Counted from the stretch's first letter, positions 10,158-24,358 are shown. The stretch: DNA of 41,078 bases from a bacterium (GCA_024743075.1 JANSXG010000009.1:1-41078), one strand, 5' to 3'. Notes: generated by a model from the sequence alone, not told the origin. Numbers and translations: made by a program.

Positions 10158-11051
10158 TCAGGCGCGACGGCGACGGATCGCCGCGAGGCCCGCGAGGCCG
10201 ACCAGCCCGAGGGTGCCGGGGGTCGGGATGGTGATGAACTGGTTGCCGGCGAACTGGTTGAAGTCAATGCCGCTCAGATTGCCGATGAAGTTGCCCGCAC
10301 CGTCACCGCCGAGGTTGCCGGTGCCATCGGGCAGGCCACCGATGACCTGGTTTGACATGAAGTCGTTGCCGCTGCCGTTGATCCAGCCGGCGATGTTGAT
10401 CGGTGTGACGCCGTCCCAGCCCAGAGCACCGAGGTCGATCGCGATCTCGACACCGGTGGAGACCAGGGCGGGGTCCGAATCGAACGGGTCGCCGAGGTTG
10501 CCGACGCCGCCGACGTTCGAGTTGTCCTGCGAGAACGTGATGTCCGCGCCGCCGAGTTGCACGGTGAGCTGGTTGCCCGCGACGGGGCCGCCGCCGAGGA
10601 AGCCGCCGGTGCCGTCAACGAGGGCGCCATCGACATACCACTCGATGGGGTCGTTGCCACCGGTGAAGCTGAGCACGGCGTCGGCCTCGAAGCCCGAGTC
10701 GAATGTCAGGCCGCCGAGGTTCCCGAGGTTGGGAAGATCGGTCGACAACTGGTTCTGACCACCGGCGGCGTAATCCAGCACGATGTTCAGCTTGTTGAAG
10801 TTCGTCTGAAGGTTGCCGGCGACACCGAGGAACAGGGTCGTGCCGGAGATGCTGCCGTACAGGGCGTCAATCTCGGAACCGTTGGCGAATTCGACGGACG
10901 GATCGTCGTTGTTGCCGAAGCCGGTGCCGATGTTCTGGCTCCAGAGGGCGGGGCCGTACTTGCTGTCGAAGTCCGCACCGTTGATGGGCGCACCAGCGAA
11001 GGCGGCACCGGTCGTCGCAAGCAGCGCCGTTGCACAAAGGGTCTTCATCAT
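10158..11051 (-). CDS. Secreted single-module A-B protein with PxPG tail
   Basis: A 297-residue exported protein, clearly paralogous to the repeat blocks of its downstream neighbour. The signal peptide ends near residue 19 (LLATTGAAFAGAP). Block A (about 25-150) has NGSEIDALYGSISG, LFLGVAGNLQ, NKLNIVLDY and GLTFDSGFEADAVLSFTGG. Block B (about 165-275) has SDPALVSTGVEIAIDL, PINIAGWINGSG, FMSNQVIGGLPD and FAGNQFITI. It ends in PTPG-TLGLVGLAGLAAI-RRRR, a sorting-like tail, whereas its large relative ends in a dockerin. The same module is therefore attached to two different anchors. Start: two adjacent ATGs at 11051 and 11048. Function is unknown. The upstream region holds conspicuous palindromes. 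Confidence 0.8.
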   Translation of the reverse strand: MMKTLCATALLATTGAAFAGAPINGADFDSKYGPALWSQNIGTGFGNNDDPSVEFANGSEIDALYGSISGTTLFLGVAGNLQTNFNKLNIVLDYAAGGQNQLSTDLPNLGNLGGLTFDSGFEADAVLSFTGGNDPIEWYVDGALVDGTGGFLGGGPVAGNQLTVQLGGADITFSQDNSNVGGVGNLGDPFDSDPALVSTGVEIAIDLGALGWDGVTPINIAGWINGSGNDFMSNQVIGGLPDGTGNLGGDGAGNFIGNLSGIDFNQFAGNQFITIPTPGTLGLVGLAGLAAIRRRRA

Positions 11052-15584: not shown

Positions 15585-17108
15585 ATGCTTAAGAACGCTC
15601 TGTTGATGTTGACCGTCGGCGCGCTGATGACTGTGTCAGCGCCCGCTCCGCTCACGACCAGCGCGAGCGCCGCCGTCGTGATCCAGGACGCTGGAGATGA
15701 GGACGCCACCGAAGACATGGTGATTTTCACCAATGGGCGAGTCGTGCGCGGGGACATCCTTGAGGAGACCGACGCGACAATCATCATGAACGTCCGGATC
15801 GGCTCCATGCCCGCGGTCCGCACGGTCTACGAGAAAGACCAGATCCTCGAAATCAAGCGGGACATCCCGCGCGAGTCCGAGGGACGCAAGGACGAAGCCG
15901 AGAAGAAGGAAGAAGTTCTCCCCGACAAGAATACTCGCGGCGAGGACATCGATGAGGACACCACGCTCTTCTACTACGCCGAACTCAATGGGATCTTCGA
16001 GAAGGATCTCACGGCGACGCCGCTGACCGACCTTTTCCGGGACGTCGACGAGACGTTCAACGACCTCGTCGAGATCTCGGATCCGCGCGGTGGCGTGACC
16101 TACAAGGTCGACGAAACGAAGCGCGACAAGCACATTGTCCTGCTCAAGCTTGACGCGACCACTTTGTACGAGGGCTTCGACGGCCTTTTCGCCGCAGAGC
16201 GTGTTACTCCGATCTTCAAAGATGAGATCCAGAAGGGGCGGCGCATCGTTTTCTGGGTCGACCAGGCCATCGGCGGCGCGGCCTTCGTGCCGTGGCTGAG
16301 CCCTGAGATGTACATTACTCCCGACTCGGTCATCGGCCTCGCCGGCGACCTCGACGATTTCGACATCGGCGATGAGCAGGTCAACCTCAAGCAGATCTCG
16401 CTCCGCATGGGCCACGCCGAAGGTCTGGTTGTCTACGGCGGCTACGGGCGTCTGGGCGTCGCGATCGTGCAGGCGATGGCTCGCGGACAGTACTGGTTCG
16501 CGGTCCGGCTGACCGGCGTCGAGCCCGAGTACTACATCAGCACCGAAATGCCCGGCCCGGAGATCATGAACAATCCGCAGTGGATCCTCCTGACCGACAA
16601 CGGCCAGGACGAGTACGAGGACGATCCGGACGAGGTCCTCTACGGAAACGACACGCTGTTCCTCCGCGACGACATGCCGCTGAAGCTCGGCATCGCCGAC
16701 GGCGTTGCCAGTTCCGTCGAAGACATCGCTCTGAGTATGCGTGTGTTCCGGAACTACGCGGTCCTTGAGAACACCAAGGCCGAGGCCATCATGAACGGTT
16801 GGACCGAAGACGTCGAGCGTGCGCTGGTGAACTACCAGCGCATCTTTGACGAGGCCAACAATGTGCAGATCGGCGGAGGCCGTGACGCGATTCTCGCCGC
16901 CCTCGGTCGTCAGCAGCGTCTCCTTCTGCAGGCCCGCGGCATCCTCCGTCGATTCGCCGAGGTCATGGACCCCGACGGCAACGAAAGAGCCAACATCGAT
17001 GTCATGATCGAGCAGATCCGTGCCCGGATGCGCAACCTGCGCAACGGCGGCAACGACGGCCCCGGCGGCGGGGGCGGCGGCGCCGGAGGCGGGGCGGGCG
17101 GCCGGTGA
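15585..17108 (+). CDS. Exported Clp/NfeD-fold protein lacking catalytic residues (predicted pseudoprotease)
   Basis: A 507-residue exported protein. The signal peptide lies within 1-30. A small beta domain follows at 45-93 (VIFTNGRVVRGDILEETDA), shared with the next gene, then a charged linker (95-125). The Clp-like domain (about 183-390) keeps HIVLLKLD, RRIVFWVDQAIGGAAFVPWL and MYITPDSVIG. Aligned to its neighbours, the oxyanion SGGG after D190 is replaced by ATTL and the nucleophile serine by G230, so proteolysis is unlikely. A helical tail (about 400-485) precedes a glycine-rich end (487-507). AAGAGG lies about 12 bases before the ATG. It is the first of three related genes and possibly a scaffold or regulatory subunit. 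Confidence 0.75.
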   Translation: MLKNALLMLTVGALMTVSAPAPLTTSASAAVVIQDAGDEDATEDMVIFTNGRVVRGDILEETDATIIMNVRIGSMPAVRTVYEKDQILEIKRDIPRESEGRKDEAEKKEEVLPDKNTRGEDIDEDTTLFYYAELNGIFEKDLTATPLTDLFRDVDETFNDLVEISDPRGGVTYKVDETKRDKHIVLLKLDATTLYEGFDGLFAAERVTPIFKDEIQKGRRIVFWVDQAIGGAAFVPWLSPEMYITPDSVIGLAGDLDDFDIGDEQVNLKQISLRMGHAEGLVVYGGYGRLGVAIVQAMARGQYWFAVRLTGVEPEYYISTEMPGPEIMNNPQWILLTDNGQDEYEDDPDEVLYGNDTLFLRDDMPLKLGIADGVASSVEDIALSMRVFRNYAVLENTKAEAIMNGWTEDVERALVNYQRIFDEANNVQIGGGRDAILAALGRQQRLLLQARGILRRFAEVMDPDGNERANIDVMIEQIRARMRNLRNGGNDGPGGGGGGAGGGAGGR

Positions 17109-17167
17109 CCCGGCGTAGAACATTGAACCCAAGCAAGGCTCACTGACAGATACACGCGAGGAACGAA

Positions 17168-18433
17168 ATGAACAGGTTTATGAAGTGGATTCAAAGCGGA
17201 GCATCACTGCTCGTCATCGCGGCGCTCGCCGTCGTCATGGCGACCCAGGCGGTGTTCGCTCTCGATAAGGTGACGCTGAAGAACGGTGAAGTGTACGAGG
17301 GAGAGATCCTTCGCGAGACCGACAGCGCCGTTTGGATGAAGCGTCGGGTCGGCACCGTGGAGTTCGAAGAATTCGTGCTCAAGGAAGAAATCGCTTCCAT
17401 CGAGCGCGATGTCGATACGCCGGGCGACGGCACCAAGTCGCGCGACAGTGCGAAAGATCGCGAGGCCCGCCAGAAGGCCATCGCCTCTGGCGCGACCAAG
17501 GTCTGCTTCATCTCGCTCGGCGACAAGGAGAACAACAAGGAAATGGTGGGCATGTACATCTATGGAGATGCCCTCCGCGACTCGATGAAGGCGCTGCTCG
17601 AATTGCCTGAGGAAGAGCAACCGGACATCGTTGTGCTCGTTGTCGACTCTGGCGGTGGTTACACCGCCGAGACCAAGCCACTCTCCGATGTCATCCACCT
17701 GGAGATGAAGAAGCATTTCCGCGTGGTGGTTTGGGTGGAATCAGCGATCTCCGCGGCCTCGTTCATCAGCTTCAACGCGGAAGAGATCTACATGAAGCCC
17801 GAGGGTCACATCGGCGGCACCGTGCAGTACATCGGCGGCCCCGGCGGTGCGAAGGCATCGGAAGGACGCGAGCTTCTCGAAGTCCTCGAACTCGGCGAAA
17901 TGATCTCCAAGCGTGGTCGCCGCGACCCGCTGGTCATGCGAGCTATGCAGACCACCACGCTGCTCACCGCGGACGTCAACGAGCGGACCGGCGAGGTGAA
18001 GTTCTACGACGGAGAAGGTGGCAAGCACGTTGTGAGCCCCGCTACCGAGATCCTCACGCTGAACGCGCTCGATGCCGATTTCTACGGCGTCAGCAAGGGC
18101 ACCGCCGCGAACAAGAACGAACTCGCCAAACTCATGGGCCTCAGCGAGTGGGTCGAGGTGGGCGAAGTCGCCGACGAGGTCCAGCGCCGGTTCCGTGACA
18201 ACGTGAAGACCGCCGAAGTGCGGTCGGGCGAGGTGTACGCGAAATACCAGATCGCTCTCGCCAACGCGATCAACTCCGGCGGCACCGACCGTCAGCGTGA
18301 GGTCGGCATCGCTCGCCGATACCTGAACGAACTCCGCTCGATCATCAACCGTGCGGCCTCGTTCAAGAAGTACAACGGCATCACCGATGCGTTCTTCCGC
18401 GAGCAGGAACGTCTGCTCCGCAGCCTCGTCTGA
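17168..18433 (+). CDS. Exported Clp-fold (SDH/NfeD-like) serine protease, likely active
   Basis: A 421-residue protein with an N-terminal hydrophobic segment (13-31; signal peptide or anchor). The small beta domain (33-82; VTLKNGEVYEGEILRETD) matches that of the preceding gene. The Clp-fold domain (110-330) carries DIVVLVVDSGGGYTAE (oxyanion motif, D160-G164), VVWVESAISAASFISF with S195 aligned by eye to the nucleophile of NfeD-type proteases such as PH1510, and IYMKPEGHIGG. K229 is the best candidate for the catalytic base. A helical C-terminal region (335-421) follows. It lies 59 bases after the pseudoprotease gene, with AGGAA before its ATG. The substrate is unknown; in NfeD and SppA relatives it is a membrane protein or signal peptide. 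Confidence 0.78.
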   Translation: MNRFMKWIQSGASLLVIAALAVVMATQAVFALDKVTLKNGEVYEGEILRETDSAVWMKRRVGTVEFEEFVLKEEIASIERDVDTPGDGTKSRDSAKDREARQKAIASGATKVCFISLGDKENNKEMVGMYIYGDALRDSMKALLELPEEEQPDIVVLVVDSGGGYTAETKPLSDVIHLEMKKHFRVVVWVESAISAASFISFNAEEIYMKPEGHIGGTVQYIGGPGGAKASEGRELLEVLELGEMISKRGRRDPLVMRAMQTTTLLTADVNERTGEVKFYDGEGGKHVVSPATEILTLNALDADFYGVSKGTAANKNELAKLMGLSEWVEVGEVADEVQRRFRDNVKTAEVRSGEVYAKYQIALANAINSGGTDRQREVGIARRYLNELRSIINRAASFKKYNGITDAFFREQERLLRSLV

Positions 18434-18457
18434 GTGCCGAGTGTTCAAAGCGTGAAG

Positions 18458-18487
18458 AAAGCCCGGCGCACCAGCGTCGGGCTTTTT
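18458..18487 (+). terminator. Intrinsic terminator after the second Clp-fold gene
   Basis: GCCCGGCGC (18461-18469) pairs with GCGTCGGGC (one mismatch, ACCA loop) followed by TTTTT (18483-18487). It is strong and well placed, 24 bases after the stop at 18433. The third gene of the cluster starts only 17 bases after the T-run, so it depends on read-through or on a promoter overlapping this structure. Confidence 0.85.
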
Positions 18488-18503
18488 CTATGGTGAACGG
18501 CGC

Positions 18504-19484
18504 ATGACCCGAACCCTCGTCGCCATCTTCGGATTCGCGCTCTCGCTCGTCGGTCTCTTGGCAGCTTCGGCGTGCTCGCCGCCCGCAGAAGGCCCGTCGA
18601 CGGCGAGCGATCGTCCGGCAAGGGTCGTGGTCGTCCGGCTCGACGGCTTCGTCGGCTGCGGCGTCGATGCCGAACTGCTCCGCCAACCGCTCGCCGAGAT
18701 CGTTGCCGATCTGGACCGACGCGTGGACACCGTAGTGTTCGCGTTCGATTCCGGGGGCGGGATGCTCAACCGCGTCGGTCCGCTGTCGGACCTGATCCAC
18801 GGCTACTTCGCCAAGCGTGACATCGATTGCATCGGGTGGATCGAGCGTGCGGAGTCCGCGGCGTCCATCGTGGCGCTCACGATTCCGGATCTTTGGGTGT
18901 CGCCCGACGGAACCATCGGAGCGGCGATCGGCGTCCGAGAGGCGGGGCCGGGAGCCTGGCAGGCGTTGCCCCCGGAGGAGCAGGAAGCCGTGCGTTTCAT
19001 GGTCGCGGCGGCGGCATCACGAGGCGGCCACGATCCCGATGTCGCGCTGCGCATGACGCAGCCCGCATCGAGCACTGACGATCCCCATGGCGGTCGGGTG
19101 TTCACCGGGCAAGAGGCGGCGGAGTTCGGGATCGCGCAAGCAGCGAATTCGATCGATGCCGCGCTGGACTCGATCTACGGGAGCTCCGGGTGGCAGATCG
19201 ATCGGGAGCGATCGGACCGGATCAGTCGGACCGTCGAACGGGCCGAGCGCGTCCGGGCGGAACTCGCGGAACTGTACGATCGGCTCGACCGGGCGATTGC
19301 ATCCGCTGCCGAAGGGGATTCTTCGGCGGTCGGCTTGGCCGCGGATGTGCTCGATCAACTGCTCGAACTCGCGAGCAAAGACGACCCGACGACCGTTCGG
19401 GCCGTCAGATTCCTCGGGGGTTTCCAGCGCATCTCCGGCGCGATCGATCGCGTGGATGCCCTTTCTGACCAGAACACGCCCTGA
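18504..19484 (+). CDS. Exported Clp-fold (SDH/NfeD-like) protein, serine present, lysine absent
   Basis: A 326-residue protein. The N-terminal signal has a possible lipobox (AASAC, C24), so it may be a lipoprotein. It lacks the small beta domain of its two neighbours. The Clp-like domain (40-225) keeps TVVFAFDSGGGMLNR (D82-G86), IGWIERAESAASIVAL with S118 in the nucleophile position, and LWVSPDGTIGA. No lysine occurs between residues 105 and 291, so the usual Ser-Lys dyad cannot form there. A helical C-terminal region (235-320) resembles those of the other two. It is separated from the second gene by a strong terminator. A hairpin at 19525-19539 lies downstream. Confidence 0.72.
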   Translation: MTRTLVAIFGFALSLVGLLAASACSPPAEGPSTASDRPARVVVVRLDGFVGCGVDAELLRQPLAEIVADLDRRVDTVVFAFDSGGGMLNRVGPLSDLIHGYFAKRDIDCIGWIERAESAASIVALTIPDLWVSPDGTIGAAIGVREAGPGAWQALPPEEQEAVRFMVAAAASRGGHDPDVALRMTQPASSTDDPHGGRVFTGQEAAEFGIAQAANSIDAALDSIYGSSGWQIDRERSDRISRTVERAERVRAELAELYDRLDRAIASAAEGDSSAVGLAADVLDQLLELASKDDPTTVRAVRFLGGFQRISGAIDRVDALSDQNTP

Positions 19485-19577: not shown

Positions 19578-21332
19578 ATGACACGACGCGAAAAGCGCAA
19601 CCCCGGTGCCGCCATGGGCAACGGCCTGATCCAGACCGACTTTGTTCCCGCCGAGATCGACGGTGCATGTTGGGATGCCCTTCAGCCGCTGTACACCGAT
19701 CTGCTCGAGCGTCCGGTGACGTCAGCGCAGGAACTCGAACGATGGCTGCTGGATCGCAGCGAGCTGGACGCCGCGGCCAGTGAGGCCCGCGCGAATCTCT
19801 ATATCCGGATGACCTGCCACACCGACGACAAGTCGGCGGCCGACGCGTGGTCCGCGTACCTCGACGAGGTGCCCCCGAAGCTCAAGCCCATCGGCTTCAA
19901 ATTGGACACGCGCCAGACCGAACTCTTCGAGCAGATCGAGATGGACGACGAGCGCTACGGTCTGCTCCGCAAGAAGACCAAGCGCGAGGTCGAACTGTTC
20001 AAGGAAGAGAACGTCCCGCTGGAGACCCAACTCGCCAAGCTCGACCAGAAGTACGACGAGATCTGCGGCAAAATGACCGTCGAGTTCAAGGGCGAGGAGC
20101 GCACCATCCCGCAGATGGGCAAGTTCCTGCAGGACAACGACCGTGCGGTGCGCGAAGCCGCGTGGAGGGGTGTCGCCGACCGTCGCCTCGCGGACAAGGA
20201 GGCAATCGAGGACATCTTCGACCAGATGGTCGAGAAGCGTCAGCAACTCGCGACCAACGCGGGTTTCGACAATTATCGGGATTACCAGCACGAGCGTTAC
20301 CTCCGCTTCGACTACACCCCCGCCGACTGCGAGCGTTTCCACGACGCCATCGAGCAGCACGTCGTGCCGTTCGCTCGAAAGTTCGACGCGCGGCGGAAGC
20401 AGAATCTCGGCGTAGATGTCCTCCGCCCGTGGGACCTCGCCGTGGACGAGAAAGGACGCGAGCCGCTCCGCCCGTTCGACACCGGGCAGGAAATGATCGA
20501 GAAGACCCGACGCGTGTTCGATCGCCTCGACCCGCAGCTCGGCGAGCTGTTCGATTCCATGGGCGAGAACATGGGACCGAACTTCGACCTCGATTCGCGC
20601 AAGGGCAAGGCGTTCGGCGGCTATCAGTACATGCGCGACCGCTCGCGTCAGCCGTTCATTTTCATGAACGCCGCCGGACTGCACCGCGATGTCGAGACGA
20701 TGGTGCACGAGGCCGGGCACGCGTTCCACAGCTTCCTCTGCGCCAGCGAGCCGCTCATCGGCTACCGCGACTACCCGACCGAGTTCGCTGAGGTCGCGTC
20801 GATGACGATGGAACTCATGACCATGCCGTACTGGGATGAGTACTACCAGACGGAAGAGTCTGCGAACCGCGCCAGGCGCGCGCAGATGGAAGGCTCGATC
20901 GCTCTGCTTACCTGGATCGCGACCATCGACGCGTTTCAACACTGGATCTACACGAACAAGGGCCACTCGCGCGACGAGCGCAAGCAAGCCTGGCTGCGAA
21001 TCAGCCGTCGCTTCGGGCACGATGTGTCGTGGGACGGCCTCGAAGACGCCGAGGCGTGGACCTGGCAGCGACAGGGCCACCTGTTCGGGCATCCGTTCTA
21101 CTACATCGAATACGGCATCGCCCAGCTCGGCGCCCTCGGCATCTGGCTGCACTCGCTGGTCCGCAGCGAAACCGAGGCGCTGCGTCTGTACAAGCACGCG
21201 CTTGGCTTCGGCGGTTCCAAGCCACTGCCCGACCTTTTCAGCGCGGCCGACCTGCCGTTCGATTTCGGCCCGGATACCGTTGGTCGGCTCGTCGAAGCGG
21301 TCGAGCACGAACTCGGCAAGCTCTCGGATTGA
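19578..21332 (+). CDS. M3-family zinc metallopeptidase (oligoendopeptidase F-like)
   Basis: A 584-residue protein, the usual length for PepF/M3B oligopeptidases. The zinc site is MVHEAGHAFH (H377, E378, H381). The third ligand is expected in EFAEVASMTMELM about 25 residues later. The region GHLFGHPFYYIEYGIAQLGA near the C-terminus holds the conserved HxxxxPFYYIEY substrate-binding segment of the family. It should cut peptides of roughly 7-20 residues in the cytoplasm; no signal peptide is present. The ATG at 19578 is the longest reasonable start; another ATG at 19614 (MGNGLIQ) is possible. A hairpin terminator follows at 21353. Confidence 0.9.
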   Translation: MTRREKRNPGAAMGNGLIQTDFVPAEIDGACWDALQPLYTDLLERPVTSAQELERWLLDRSELDAAASEARANLYIRMTCHTDDKSAADAWSAYLDEVPPKLKPIGFKLDTRQTELFEQIEMDDERYGLLRKKTKREVELFKEENVPLETQLAKLDQKYDEICGKMTVEFKGEERTIPQMGKFLQDNDRAVREAAWRGVADRRLADKEAIEDIFDQMVEKRQQLATNAGFDNYRDYQHERYLRFDYTPADCERFHDAIEQHVVPFARKFDARRKQNLGVDVLRPWDLAVDEKGREPLRPFDTGQEMIEKTRRVFDRLDPQLGELFDSMGENMGPNFDLDSRKGKAFGGYQYMRDRSRQPFIFMNAAGLHRDVETMVHEAGHAFHSFLCASEPLIGYRDYPTEFAEVASMTMELMTMPYWDEYYQTEESANRARRAQMEGSIALLTWIATIDAFQHWIYTNKGHSRDERKQAWLRISRRFGHDVSWDGLEDAEAWTWQRQGHLFGHPFYYIEYGIAQLGALGIWLHSLVRSETEALRLYKHALGFGGSKPLPDLFSAADLPFDFGPDTVGRLVEAVEHELGKLSD

Positions 21333-21768: not shown

Positions 21769-22743
21769 TTACCCAGCGTCGTCCGGATCGACCGGCTTCG
21801 CGCCGCCCTCGTCCAGGTGCTCGACCTCAAACCGCACAGAGACGAATTGCTCCATGAGCTGCGTGATCCCGCGCTCGACGATCTCAAACGTGAGTTTCGT
21901 GGATCCCTCGTTCACCGCTCGGACCGGCAGCAGGCGGTCCAGACGCATGAACGACTCGCCCTCGATTCTGCCGCTCGCTTGCTTCAGAGTGGTCTGCGCG
22001 CCCGGGACTCCGGAGTCGAACTTCTGCTCGCTCGCGGTCTGTTCGCCCGTGATCTTCACTTCTATCGTGTCGCCCTCGCGCCGCACGAGTTCGTACACCA
22101 CCGAGTTCTTCAGGGTGGGGGCGTTCGGCATCGTCAGCGACTGTTCGACGCGCCAACGCGCACCGGGACCGACCGCTTCCTCGGGGAGCGGCTGCGAGAG
22201 CGATTCGACCATCCGTCGCACCCCGTTCGCCCCGCCCAGCAAATCAAGAATCTGCTCAGGAAGGTCTGCGGCGTTCGTTTCGGTGACGAATCCACGCGAA
22301 TCCGTGACGAAGGTGAGCTTCGTGCCTTCCAGCGGGCGAAGCACACGCCAGATCGCATCGCGGACCATCGGGTCGACATCGCCTTCGAGTTCGACGGACT
22401 CGTAGACGGTTTCCACCGGGTAGCGCCCCTGATCGTCGGGCTCACCCGCGGTCGCGCTGACCGTGAAGACGTACGCTGGCAGGTTCACCGGCGGCATCGG
22501 GTTGCCGTCGAACGCCAACGACATTTCCATCGCCATCTTCATCCGAGCTCGTACAGGCACACCAACCTGCGGCGCCCACCGCAGCACGCGTTGTTCTCCA
22601 TGCCCCGCATCGAGCAGAGTGACCGTCGCGCCGCTGGCACGCTCGTCCTGCGCAGCGGACGCGTGGCTGGCGGGGCCTATGGCCCCGGAGCCAAGCACGA
22701 ACCCCAGGGTCACAAGAAGCGAACGGATCGGCTGGCGTCGCAT
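21769..22743 (-). CDS. Exported DUF6263-like protein of unknown function
   Basis: A 324-residue protein with a signal peptide (RSLLVTLGFVLGSGAIGPASHASAAQ). Two similar halves of beta-rich sequence follow. The middle has LEGTKLTFVTDSRGFVTE and LPEEAVGPGARWRVEQSL, the kind of lipid-carrier-like pattern seen in DUF6263 proteins; this family call is tentative. The end is acidic. It probably acts in the periplasm. I chose ATG 22743, which follows GAAAGGG; an ATG five codons upstream (22758) is equally in frame. It is divergent from the PLP decarboxylase gene (73 bases apart). Confidence 0.65.
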   Translation of the reverse strand: MRRQPIRSLLVTLGFVLGSGAIGPASHASAAQDERASGATVTLLDAGHGEQRVLRWAPQVGVPVRARMKMAMEMSLAFDGNPMPPVNLPAYVFTVSATAGEPDDQGRYPVETVYESVELEGDVDPMVRDAIWRVLRPLEGTKLTFVTDSRGFVTETNAADLPEQILDLLGGANGVRRMVESLSQPLPEEAVGPGARWRVEQSLTMPNAPTLKNSVVYELVRREGDTIEVKITGEQTASEQKFDSGVPGAQTTLKQASGRIEGESFMRLDRLLPVRAVNEGSTKLTFEIVERGITQLMEQFVSVRFEVEHLDEGGAKPVDPDDAG

Positions 22744-22816
22744 GGCGGGCCCTTTCATGAGCGGTGGTTCCGTGTCGAGTGTACACCGTGGCTGTTCCAA
22801 AGCGTATCGTGGTCCT

Positions 22817-24358
22817 ATGGCAAACAACGAGCCAGAGATCGCTTCCGGACCCGTTCCACCGCTCCCGGGTCCGGAACCGGCGCCGGCGCATATGTCCCCC
22901 GCAGAGTTCCGCGAACTCGGCCACCGGATGGTCGACTACATCGCGGGCTATTACGAACGCTTGAACTCCGCGGGTCGGCCGGATGTGCTTTCGCGCGCGA
23001 AGCCGGGTGAAATCGCGGGGGTTCTTCCAAAGCGTGTTTCGGAGGCCGGCTCACCCCTCCAGGAGTCCGGGTTCGACGCCATGCTGCACGACCTCGAAGA
23101 ACTGGTCATGCCGGGCCTCACTCATTGGCAGCACCCGAACTTCTACGCATTCTTCCCCGCCAACAGTTCGTTCCCGGCGATCCTCGGCGACATGCTCGCG
23201 ACCGGACTCGCCGTCCAAGGCATGCTCTGGCAGACCTCGCCGGCCTGCACGGAAGTCGAGACCGCGGTCCTCGATCAGGTAGCCCGTCTGATCGCGTTGC
23301 CCGAATCGTTCACGAGCACGGACGGCGGCGGGGTCATTCAGGGGACGGCATCCGAAGCGACTCTGGCCGCCATGGTCGCCGCCCGCGACCGTGCGCAGCG
23401 CAAGCATCCCGAGGCCGACCTCGTCGCCTACACATCAACCCAGGCGCACTCATCCATCGTCAAAGCCGCGATGGTCTGCGGCATCGGGCGAGATCGGGTC
23501 CGGCTCGTCGGCACGGATGAAACGCTGGCCATGAACCCTGACCGATTGCGCGACGCGATCCAAGCCGACCTCGATGCAGGGCTCACTCCGTTCTTCGTCG
23601 GTGCGACGCTCGGCACGACCTCCAGCGGCGCCGTTGATCCGCTCGAACCGATCGGGAAGATTGCCGCCGAGCATGACTGCTGGGTACATGTGGACGCCGC
23701 GTGGGCCGGCAGCGCGCTGGTGTGCGAAGAGCACCGCTGGATGCTGAAAGGCATCGAGCGTGCGTCGTCTTTTTCGTTCAACCCGCACAAGTGGCTGCTG
23801 ACGAATTTCGATTGCTCGCTCATGTGGCTCAACGGGCGGGCCCGGCGCGACGAGCTCGTCAGCGCGATGAGCATCGTCCCCGAGTACCTGCGCAATCGGG
23901 CGAGCGACGAGGGCGCGGTGATCGACTACCGCGACTGGCATGTTCCCCTCGGCAGGCGCTTCCGGGCGCTCAAACTCTGGTTCGTGCTGCGCCATTACGG
24001 CGCGAGCGGCCTGCGAGCCCACATCCGCCTGCACTGTCGTCTCGCCGAGAGACTGGAGCGGGTCATACGGGCCGACGACCGGGTCGAACTCCTCACGCCC
24101 AGGTCGCTGAGCCTGCTTTGCTTCGCCGTGCGAGGATCAGATTTCACAGAATCTGAACGTTTGAGCCGCGAACTGCTCCGGCGCGTCAACGACTCCGGAA
24201 AGGCCTACCTCACCCACACCACGCTCCCTCACCCGGACGGCGGATCTCGCTACGCCGTACGCTTCGCGATCGGCGCAACGCTGACCACCAAGGAGCACGT
24301 GCAGGACACATGGCGATTGATCTCGGAACTGATCGATGAGGTCCGGGGCGATCTATAA
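22817..24358 (+). CDS. PLP-dependent group II decarboxylase (aromatic-L-amino-acid decarboxylase-like)
   Basis: A 513-residue fold-type I PLP enzyme. The N-terminal part matches aromatic amino acid decarboxylases: FRELGHRMVDYIAGYY, then THWQHPNFYAFFPANSSFPAILGDML. The PLP site is SFNPHKWLLTNFDCS, with the Schiff-base lysine K325. The cofactor aspartate is in WVHVDAAWAGSAL. The C-terminal small domain ends with RFAIGATLTTKEHVQDTW. It should decarboxylate an aromatic or related L-amino acid to the amine; the exact substrate cannot be read. The ATG at 22817 is the first plausible start. Only 36 bases, with a GC-rich hairpin but no T-run, separate it from ppk1. Confidence 0.9.
   Translation: MANNEPEIASGPVPPLPGPEPAPAHMSPAEFRELGHRMVDYIAGYYERLNSAGRPDVLSRAKPGEIAGVLPKRVSEAGSPLQESGFDAMLHDLEELVMPGLTHWQHPNFYAFFPANSSFPAILGDMLATGLAVQGMLWQTSPACTEVETAVLDQVARLIALPESFTSTDGGGVIQGTASEATLAAMVAARDRAQRKHPEADLVAYTSTQAHSSIVKAAMVCGIGRDRVRLVGTDETLAMNPDRLRDAIQADLDAGLTPFFVGATLGTTSSGAVDPLEPIGKIAAEHDCWVHVDAAWAGSALVCEEHRWMLKGIERASSFSFNPHKWLLTNFDCSLMWLNGRARRDELVSAMSIVPEYLRNRASDEGAVIDYRDWHVPLGRRFRALKLWFVLRHYGASGLRAHIRLHCRLAERLERVIRADDRVELLTPRSLSLLCFAVRGSDFTESERLSRELLRRVNDSGKAYLTHTTLPHPDGGSRYAVRFAIGATLTTKEHVQDTWRLISELIDEVRGDL

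Follow-up and report, generated by a model that had tools for sequence, protein, structure and literature searches.

A candidate Ser-Lys protease of the Phycisphaerales whose catalytic dyad appears to be divided between two paralogous subunits

Introduction

Paralogous Clp-fold subunits co-assemble in the ClpP/ClpR and ClpP1/ClpP2 heteromers, in which some subunits are inactive and each active subunit carries its own full Ser-His-Asp triad. In E. coli SppA, the structure reported by Kim in 2008 is said to have Lys supplied by the N-terminal and Ser by the C-terminal half of a single chain. To our knowledge, no described Clp-fold protease has a catalytic dyad split over two genes. The active sites of SppA, an octamer in Bacillus subtilis and a tetramer in Escherichia coli, combine residues from two neighbouring monomers of one gene product (PMC7568657). 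The stomatin protease 1510-N of PH1510 (NfeD/STOPP) holds its nucleophile, Ser97, and its general base, Lys138, in one chain, is part of a membrane protein and has a stomatin partner; in its dimer a shared tunnel accommodates a single peptide, and Lys138 of one subunit lies very close to that of the other (PMC3795559).

The window analysed here, which is the whole 41,078-nucleotide stretch JANSXG010000009.1:1-41078 (GCA_024743075.1), contains three consecutive genes, P1, P2 and P3, of which the first two invite comparison with these systems. Models of P1 and P2 share with 1510-N a Clp-type fold (Z 17-22) and the Ser97/Lys138 positions, but the two residues are found on two gene products, the membrane and C-terminal domains of NfeD were not found in either protein and the locus has no stomatin neighbour. 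As in SppA, the active site would be built from two neighbouring units, which here are the products of two genes rather than one, and whereas the triad of the ClpP/ClpR and ClpP1/ClpP2 heteromers is whole in every active subunit, in P1 and P2 the dyad itself is divided. We propose, with a probability of roughly 0.7, that P1 and P2, as secreted paralogues, make up one hetero-oligomeric NfeD/SppA-type Ser-Lys protease, with the nucleophile provided by P2 and the base by P1. A description of the P1-P2 pair was not found in the open-access literature.

Results

The initial annotation had placed three adjacent open reading frames on the + strand, and these lie exactly where it put them: P1 at 15585..17108 (507 aa), P2 at 17168..18433 (421 aa) and P3 at 18504..19484 (326 aa). 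The cluster is preceded by a gene for a CCA-adding/poly(A) polymerase-type nucleotidyltransferase and followed by one for an M3 family peptidase (oligopeptidase; window 19578-21332); as had been noted for stomatin, no stomatin or flotillin gene adjoins it. All three proteins are predicted from sequence to be exported. P1 consists, in order, of a signal peptide, an Sm-like N-terminal domain, a Clp domain, a helical C terminus and a Gly-rich tail, and its N terminus is signal-like. The putative signal peptide of P2 (residues 1-31; 17168..17260, +) forms a hydrophobic helix in the model and would be cleaved at Ala31, which occupies the predicted signal peptidase site and is invariant in 56 of 56 P2 sequences. 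P3 begins with a lipobox-like ASAC motif and is likely to be a lipoprotein. Two further exported proteins are encoded on the opposite strand of the window, one at 10158-11051 (-), without a Pfam match, whose C-terminal end TPGTLGLVGLAGLAAIRRRRA resembles a PEP-CTERM sorting signal, and the other at 21769-22827 (-), against the direction of the surrounding genes, with a weak match to DUF6263.

The kinship of the three proteins, proposed in the initial annotation by eye, is well above chance. BLASTP within the searched set aligns P1 with P2 at 3e-11 and P2 with P3 at 7e-12, and profile-profile alignment between the P1 family and the P2 family (hhalign) gives a probability of 100 and an E value of 1e-56 over the full length, spanning the N-terminal beta domain, the Clp-type domain and the C-terminal helices. 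AlphaFold (AF2) models of P1 and P2, each resting on 56 orthologues, reach a mean pLDDT of 87.8 and 91.6, respectively, and have a Clp/crotonase fold. The best structural match of both is 1510-N, followed by SppA and ClpP: VIA-align superimposes P1 on 1510-N (6m4b) with a Z score of 17.2 and an rmsd of 2.5 over 179 residues, and P2 with a Z score of 22.2 and 2.2 Å over 193 residues, while both models score 15-16 against B. subtilis SppA and 13-17 against ClpP. When the P1 profile was run against PDB sequences it picked up only coiled-coil noise, and the fold of P1 therefore rests on its model and its homology to P2. The Clp fold that had been suggested for all three proteins is thus borne out by structural models for P1 and P2, and for P3 it is predicted on sequence grounds.

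The Clp/NfeD-type domain was delimited by VIA-align to residues 124-401 of P1 (15954..16787, +; against 6m4b) and residues 107-351 of P2 (17486..18220, +; against 3viv, Z 22.1), where it includes an SGGG oxyanion motif at 161-164; in the P1 model it is followed by C-terminal helices (residues 399-491; 16779..17057, +). The N-terminal beta domain previously noticed in P1 and P2 is real, and it is absent from P3. In P1 it corresponds to a predicted Sm/Hfq-like beta-barrel (residues 42-95; 15708..15869, +), defined by the strands of the model and by Foldseek matches to Hfq/Sm chains over ~50 residues at ~1 Å with a modest E value of ~0.01, and the P2 domain (residues 33-80; 17264..17407, +) is homologous to it according to hhalign and the model strands. 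In Pfam, NfeD1b_N (PF25145) matches P2 above the cut-off of 40 bits (52.2 bits, 7.6e-14) and P3 below it (25.9 bits, 8e-6); P1 of the window has no match, and 50 of the 56 P1-family members match at an E value of 0.1 or better. Neither the NfeD membrane domain (PF24961) nor its C-terminal partner-binding domain (PF01957) was found by Pfam in P1-P3; SppA/peptidase S49 (PF01343) likewise had no match in the three proteins, and one weak match among the 56 P1 members.

To locate the catalytic positions, numbered here as in 1510-N, the column register was fixed in three ways: by alignment to 1510-N, by hhalign profile alignment and by a joint alignment of 175 sequences. A profile of single-gene homologues aligns with 1510-N at an E value of 2e-18, its Ser falling in the column of Ser97 and its Lys in that of Lys138. 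PDB entries of the 1510-N mutants S97A and K138A show Ala in exactly those two columns. In the profile alignment, Lys269 of P1 and Arg234 of P2 both fall on the single-gene Lys, and the joint alignment gives the same catalytic columns as the other two methods.

The residues at these positions are complementary in the two proteins. At the Ser97 position P1 carries Gly230 (codon 16272..16274, +), a column that is Gly in 58 and Ser in only 2 of 73 P1 sequences, and at the Lys138 position it carries Lys269 (16389..16391, +), which is Lys in 73/73; no other position of P1 is fully invariant. P2 retains the SGGG motif together with the nucleophile Ser195 (17750..17752, +; Ser in 72/72), while its Lys138 position is held by Arg234 (17867..17869, +), which is not conserved (Lys in 1/72). 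In P2, residue 234 and those beside it are free to vary, and no Lys or His that could act as an alternative base is conserved within P2 at 80% or more; some Lys occurs near the loop in 44 of 72 sequences, at no fixed position. The pattern recurs in 45 pairs not used before, where P2 has Ser in 45/45 and Lys in 0/45, and P1 has Lys in all 44 readable sequences and Ser in 4 of 43. At the loci of named genomes, the Lys138 position of P2 is Lys in 0/78, and P1 combines Ser with Lys in 6 of 76 readable sequences (~8%), so P1 is not always free of the nucleophile. Four of these six (L268, L271, L280 and L283) have the common motif AMSGMAF and the others are L212 and L263; Ser may have been either retained or regained in them.

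The segments quoted in the initial annotation, AIGGAA (P1 228-233), AISAAS (P2 193-198) and AESAAS (P3 116-121), are correct. Its reading of them as an active, an incomplete and a dead member does not hold, however, since no member has both residues: P1, without Ser, and P2 and P3, without Lys, all lack a same-chain Ser-Lys dyad. The complementary losses in P1 and P2, invariant across the group and absent from that earlier reading, are the main point of the present analysis, and because P1 keeps the Lys that complements the Ser of P2, the supposedly dead member is probably a lysine donor.

It is the pair that is conserved as a unit. P1 and P2 were adjacent, on the same strand and with P1 first in all 55 relatives of a first set; the nucleotidyltransferase gene precedes the pair in 53 of these and the M3 peptidase gene follows it in 32. 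Among the 61 genomes of the same family that were searched, 55 have both genes and six have neither. Weaker homologues are present in these six, and the four that were checked by motif (L298, L300, L302 and L303) have the Ser as well as a Lys in the appropriate loop. Named genomes were scanned with the P2 alignment as query, the P1 alignment having no sufficiently conserved stretch, and this yielded 80 loci, nearly all of which bear the label Phycisphaerales/Phycisphaerae or Planctomycetota. A clean P1-P2 pair occurs at 78 of them, and the remaining two are cut by a contig end. RHKP01000001.1, titled Cyanobacteria bacterium CYA, carries a Phycisphaerales pair, and its title is probably a mislabel. 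The pair is present in four families of the order, and elsewhere in the class and phylum the loci examined have single homologues only. One exception is a 97% complete genome (G074) with P1 but without detectable P2, whose P1-type gene lies at the start of a contig (L198:1-1026), followed by an unrelated glycosyltransferase-like gene. These counts are not independent, because the sequences are related, though identity to the window proteins drops to 19-45% in members of the pair. No natural P1-P2 fusion was found among long open frames, the longest one checked (L176) having a single Clp domain.

Single-gene NfeD1b_N homologues of Planctomycetota (L153 and L168-L187) share the same three-part architecture in the profile alignment, but they have neither P1 nor P2 adjoining them and hold Ser and Lys in the same chain in 23 of 25 cases. 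One of them is encoded in the same genome as the window (contig C142; L153:3149-4483), has both residues and no P1/P2-type neighbour, and is an undivided relative of the pair. This genome also has a canonical NfeD that matches both PF24961 and PF01957 and adjoins FloA (contig C168), and a separate S49/SppA gene (contig C112). With ordinary NfeD, SppA and a single NfeD1b all present, the pair is therefore an addition rather than a replacement. In a phylogenetic tree the P1 and P2 clades have support of 1.0 and 0.983, respectively, while the sister grouping of P1 and P2 is weak (0.658), so that the split is likely, though not certain, to have happened once.

That the genes occur together in relatives, as had been expected, is true of P1 and P2 (55/55 and 78/80 loci) and does not extend to the third gene, which is found in about 6 of roughly 100 loci seen (the window, L102, L103, L136, L138 and L283); a second P2-type gene lies at a contig end in L233. 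P3 falls within the P2 clade (support 0.983), and the third copies of L136 and L138 each pair with their own P2 (support 1.0). At least two third copies are thus recent duplicates of the neighbouring P2, and such copies have arisen from P2 more than once. Ser is present at the catalytic position in three and Lys in none of five third copies, P3 itself having Ser118 and no Lys. P3 is best explained as a lineage-specific extra subunit of the Ser type, an occasional P2-type copy without the Sm-like domain.

Discussion

The complementary distribution of Ser and Lys is the one expected if the active site is composite. We infer a complex acting in trans, in which P2 would supply the nucleophile Ser195 and the SGGG oxyanion motif and P1 the general base Lys269, so that the site would form only at the P1-P2 interface. 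Neither protein would therefore be active alone. Such a site is mechanically plausible given the geometry of SppA (PMC7568657) and of the 1510-N dimer (PMC3795559), since a P1:P2 dimer would put one Ser and one Lys into one tunnel. The Sm-like N-terminal domains and the C-terminal helices would probably aid assembly of the particle. The ancestor was most likely a homo-oligomer that was encoded by one gene and held both residues; this gene would have been duplicated and the dyad then split between the copies. We also consider it probable, if slightly less so than the composite site itself, that this is a protease of the whole order Phycisphaerales, in which gene duplication divided the dyad over two secreted subunits and activity came to need the heteromer.

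The missing residues could be accounted for in other ways. P2 might be active by itself, as a homo-oligomer relying on a different base, such as a loop Lys, Arg234 or water, beside a P1 that scaffolds, regulates or presents substrate as a pseudoprotease and keeps Lys269 for structural reasons. Pseudoenzyme partners such as ClpR are common in Clp-fold systems, P1 lacks both the nucleophile and the SGGG motif, and in 41 of 78 named P2 sequences a Lys lies two positions N-terminal to where it would be expected. Yet the free variation at and around position 234, with no Lys or His conserved in P2, speaks against a substitute base, and a structural lysine would not be expected as the sole invariant residue of P1, at the catalytic position of a protein that has lost its Ser; we regard this explanation as unlikely. 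A pair without any protease activity, in which the fold has been reused for binding or as a scaffold, would agree with a dyad incomplete in each subunit alone and with helices and Sm-like domains that suggest roles in assembly. Such a pair seems quite unlikely, however, as conservation of Ser195, SGGG and Lys269 at or near 100% across 19-45% identity is hard to explain without catalysis.

The hetero-oligomeric envelope protease with degenerate members that was first suggested for this cluster is likely in essence, as a complex of P1 and P2, and fails as a unit of three. Three adjacent genes on one strand of the window are what an assembly of one active, one incomplete and one dead subunit would be read from, but third copies occur in few loci, derive from P2 more than once and sometimes lack Ser, and the full dyad is found in no member, which makes such an assembly highly improbable.

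If the composite site is correct, complementary loss of catalytic residues has turned a homo-oligomeric protease into an obligate heteromer, and the unpaired relatives still display the undivided state. Caution would then be due wherever enzymes are called dead from residues judged protein by protein, as annotation would make P1 a pseudoprotease even though the catalytic base is probably in it.

The heteromer, which we infer to be obligate, would probably be periplasmic, judging from Ala31 of P2, the signal-like N terminus of P1 and the ASAC motif of P3. Its substrate is probably an envelope protein or a membrane-derived peptide. A role in the breakdown of membrane-derived or signal peptides, by analogy with SppA, is a guess aided solely by the M3 oligopeptidase gene downstream, to which a functional link in peptide turnover is possible.

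The Sm-like N-terminal domain also occurs outside the pair as a widespread exported module: it is similar to a portion of Kustd1711, a diheme cytochrome from the planctomycete Kuenenia (7zs0), and to the N termini of Leptospira and PTPDL families.
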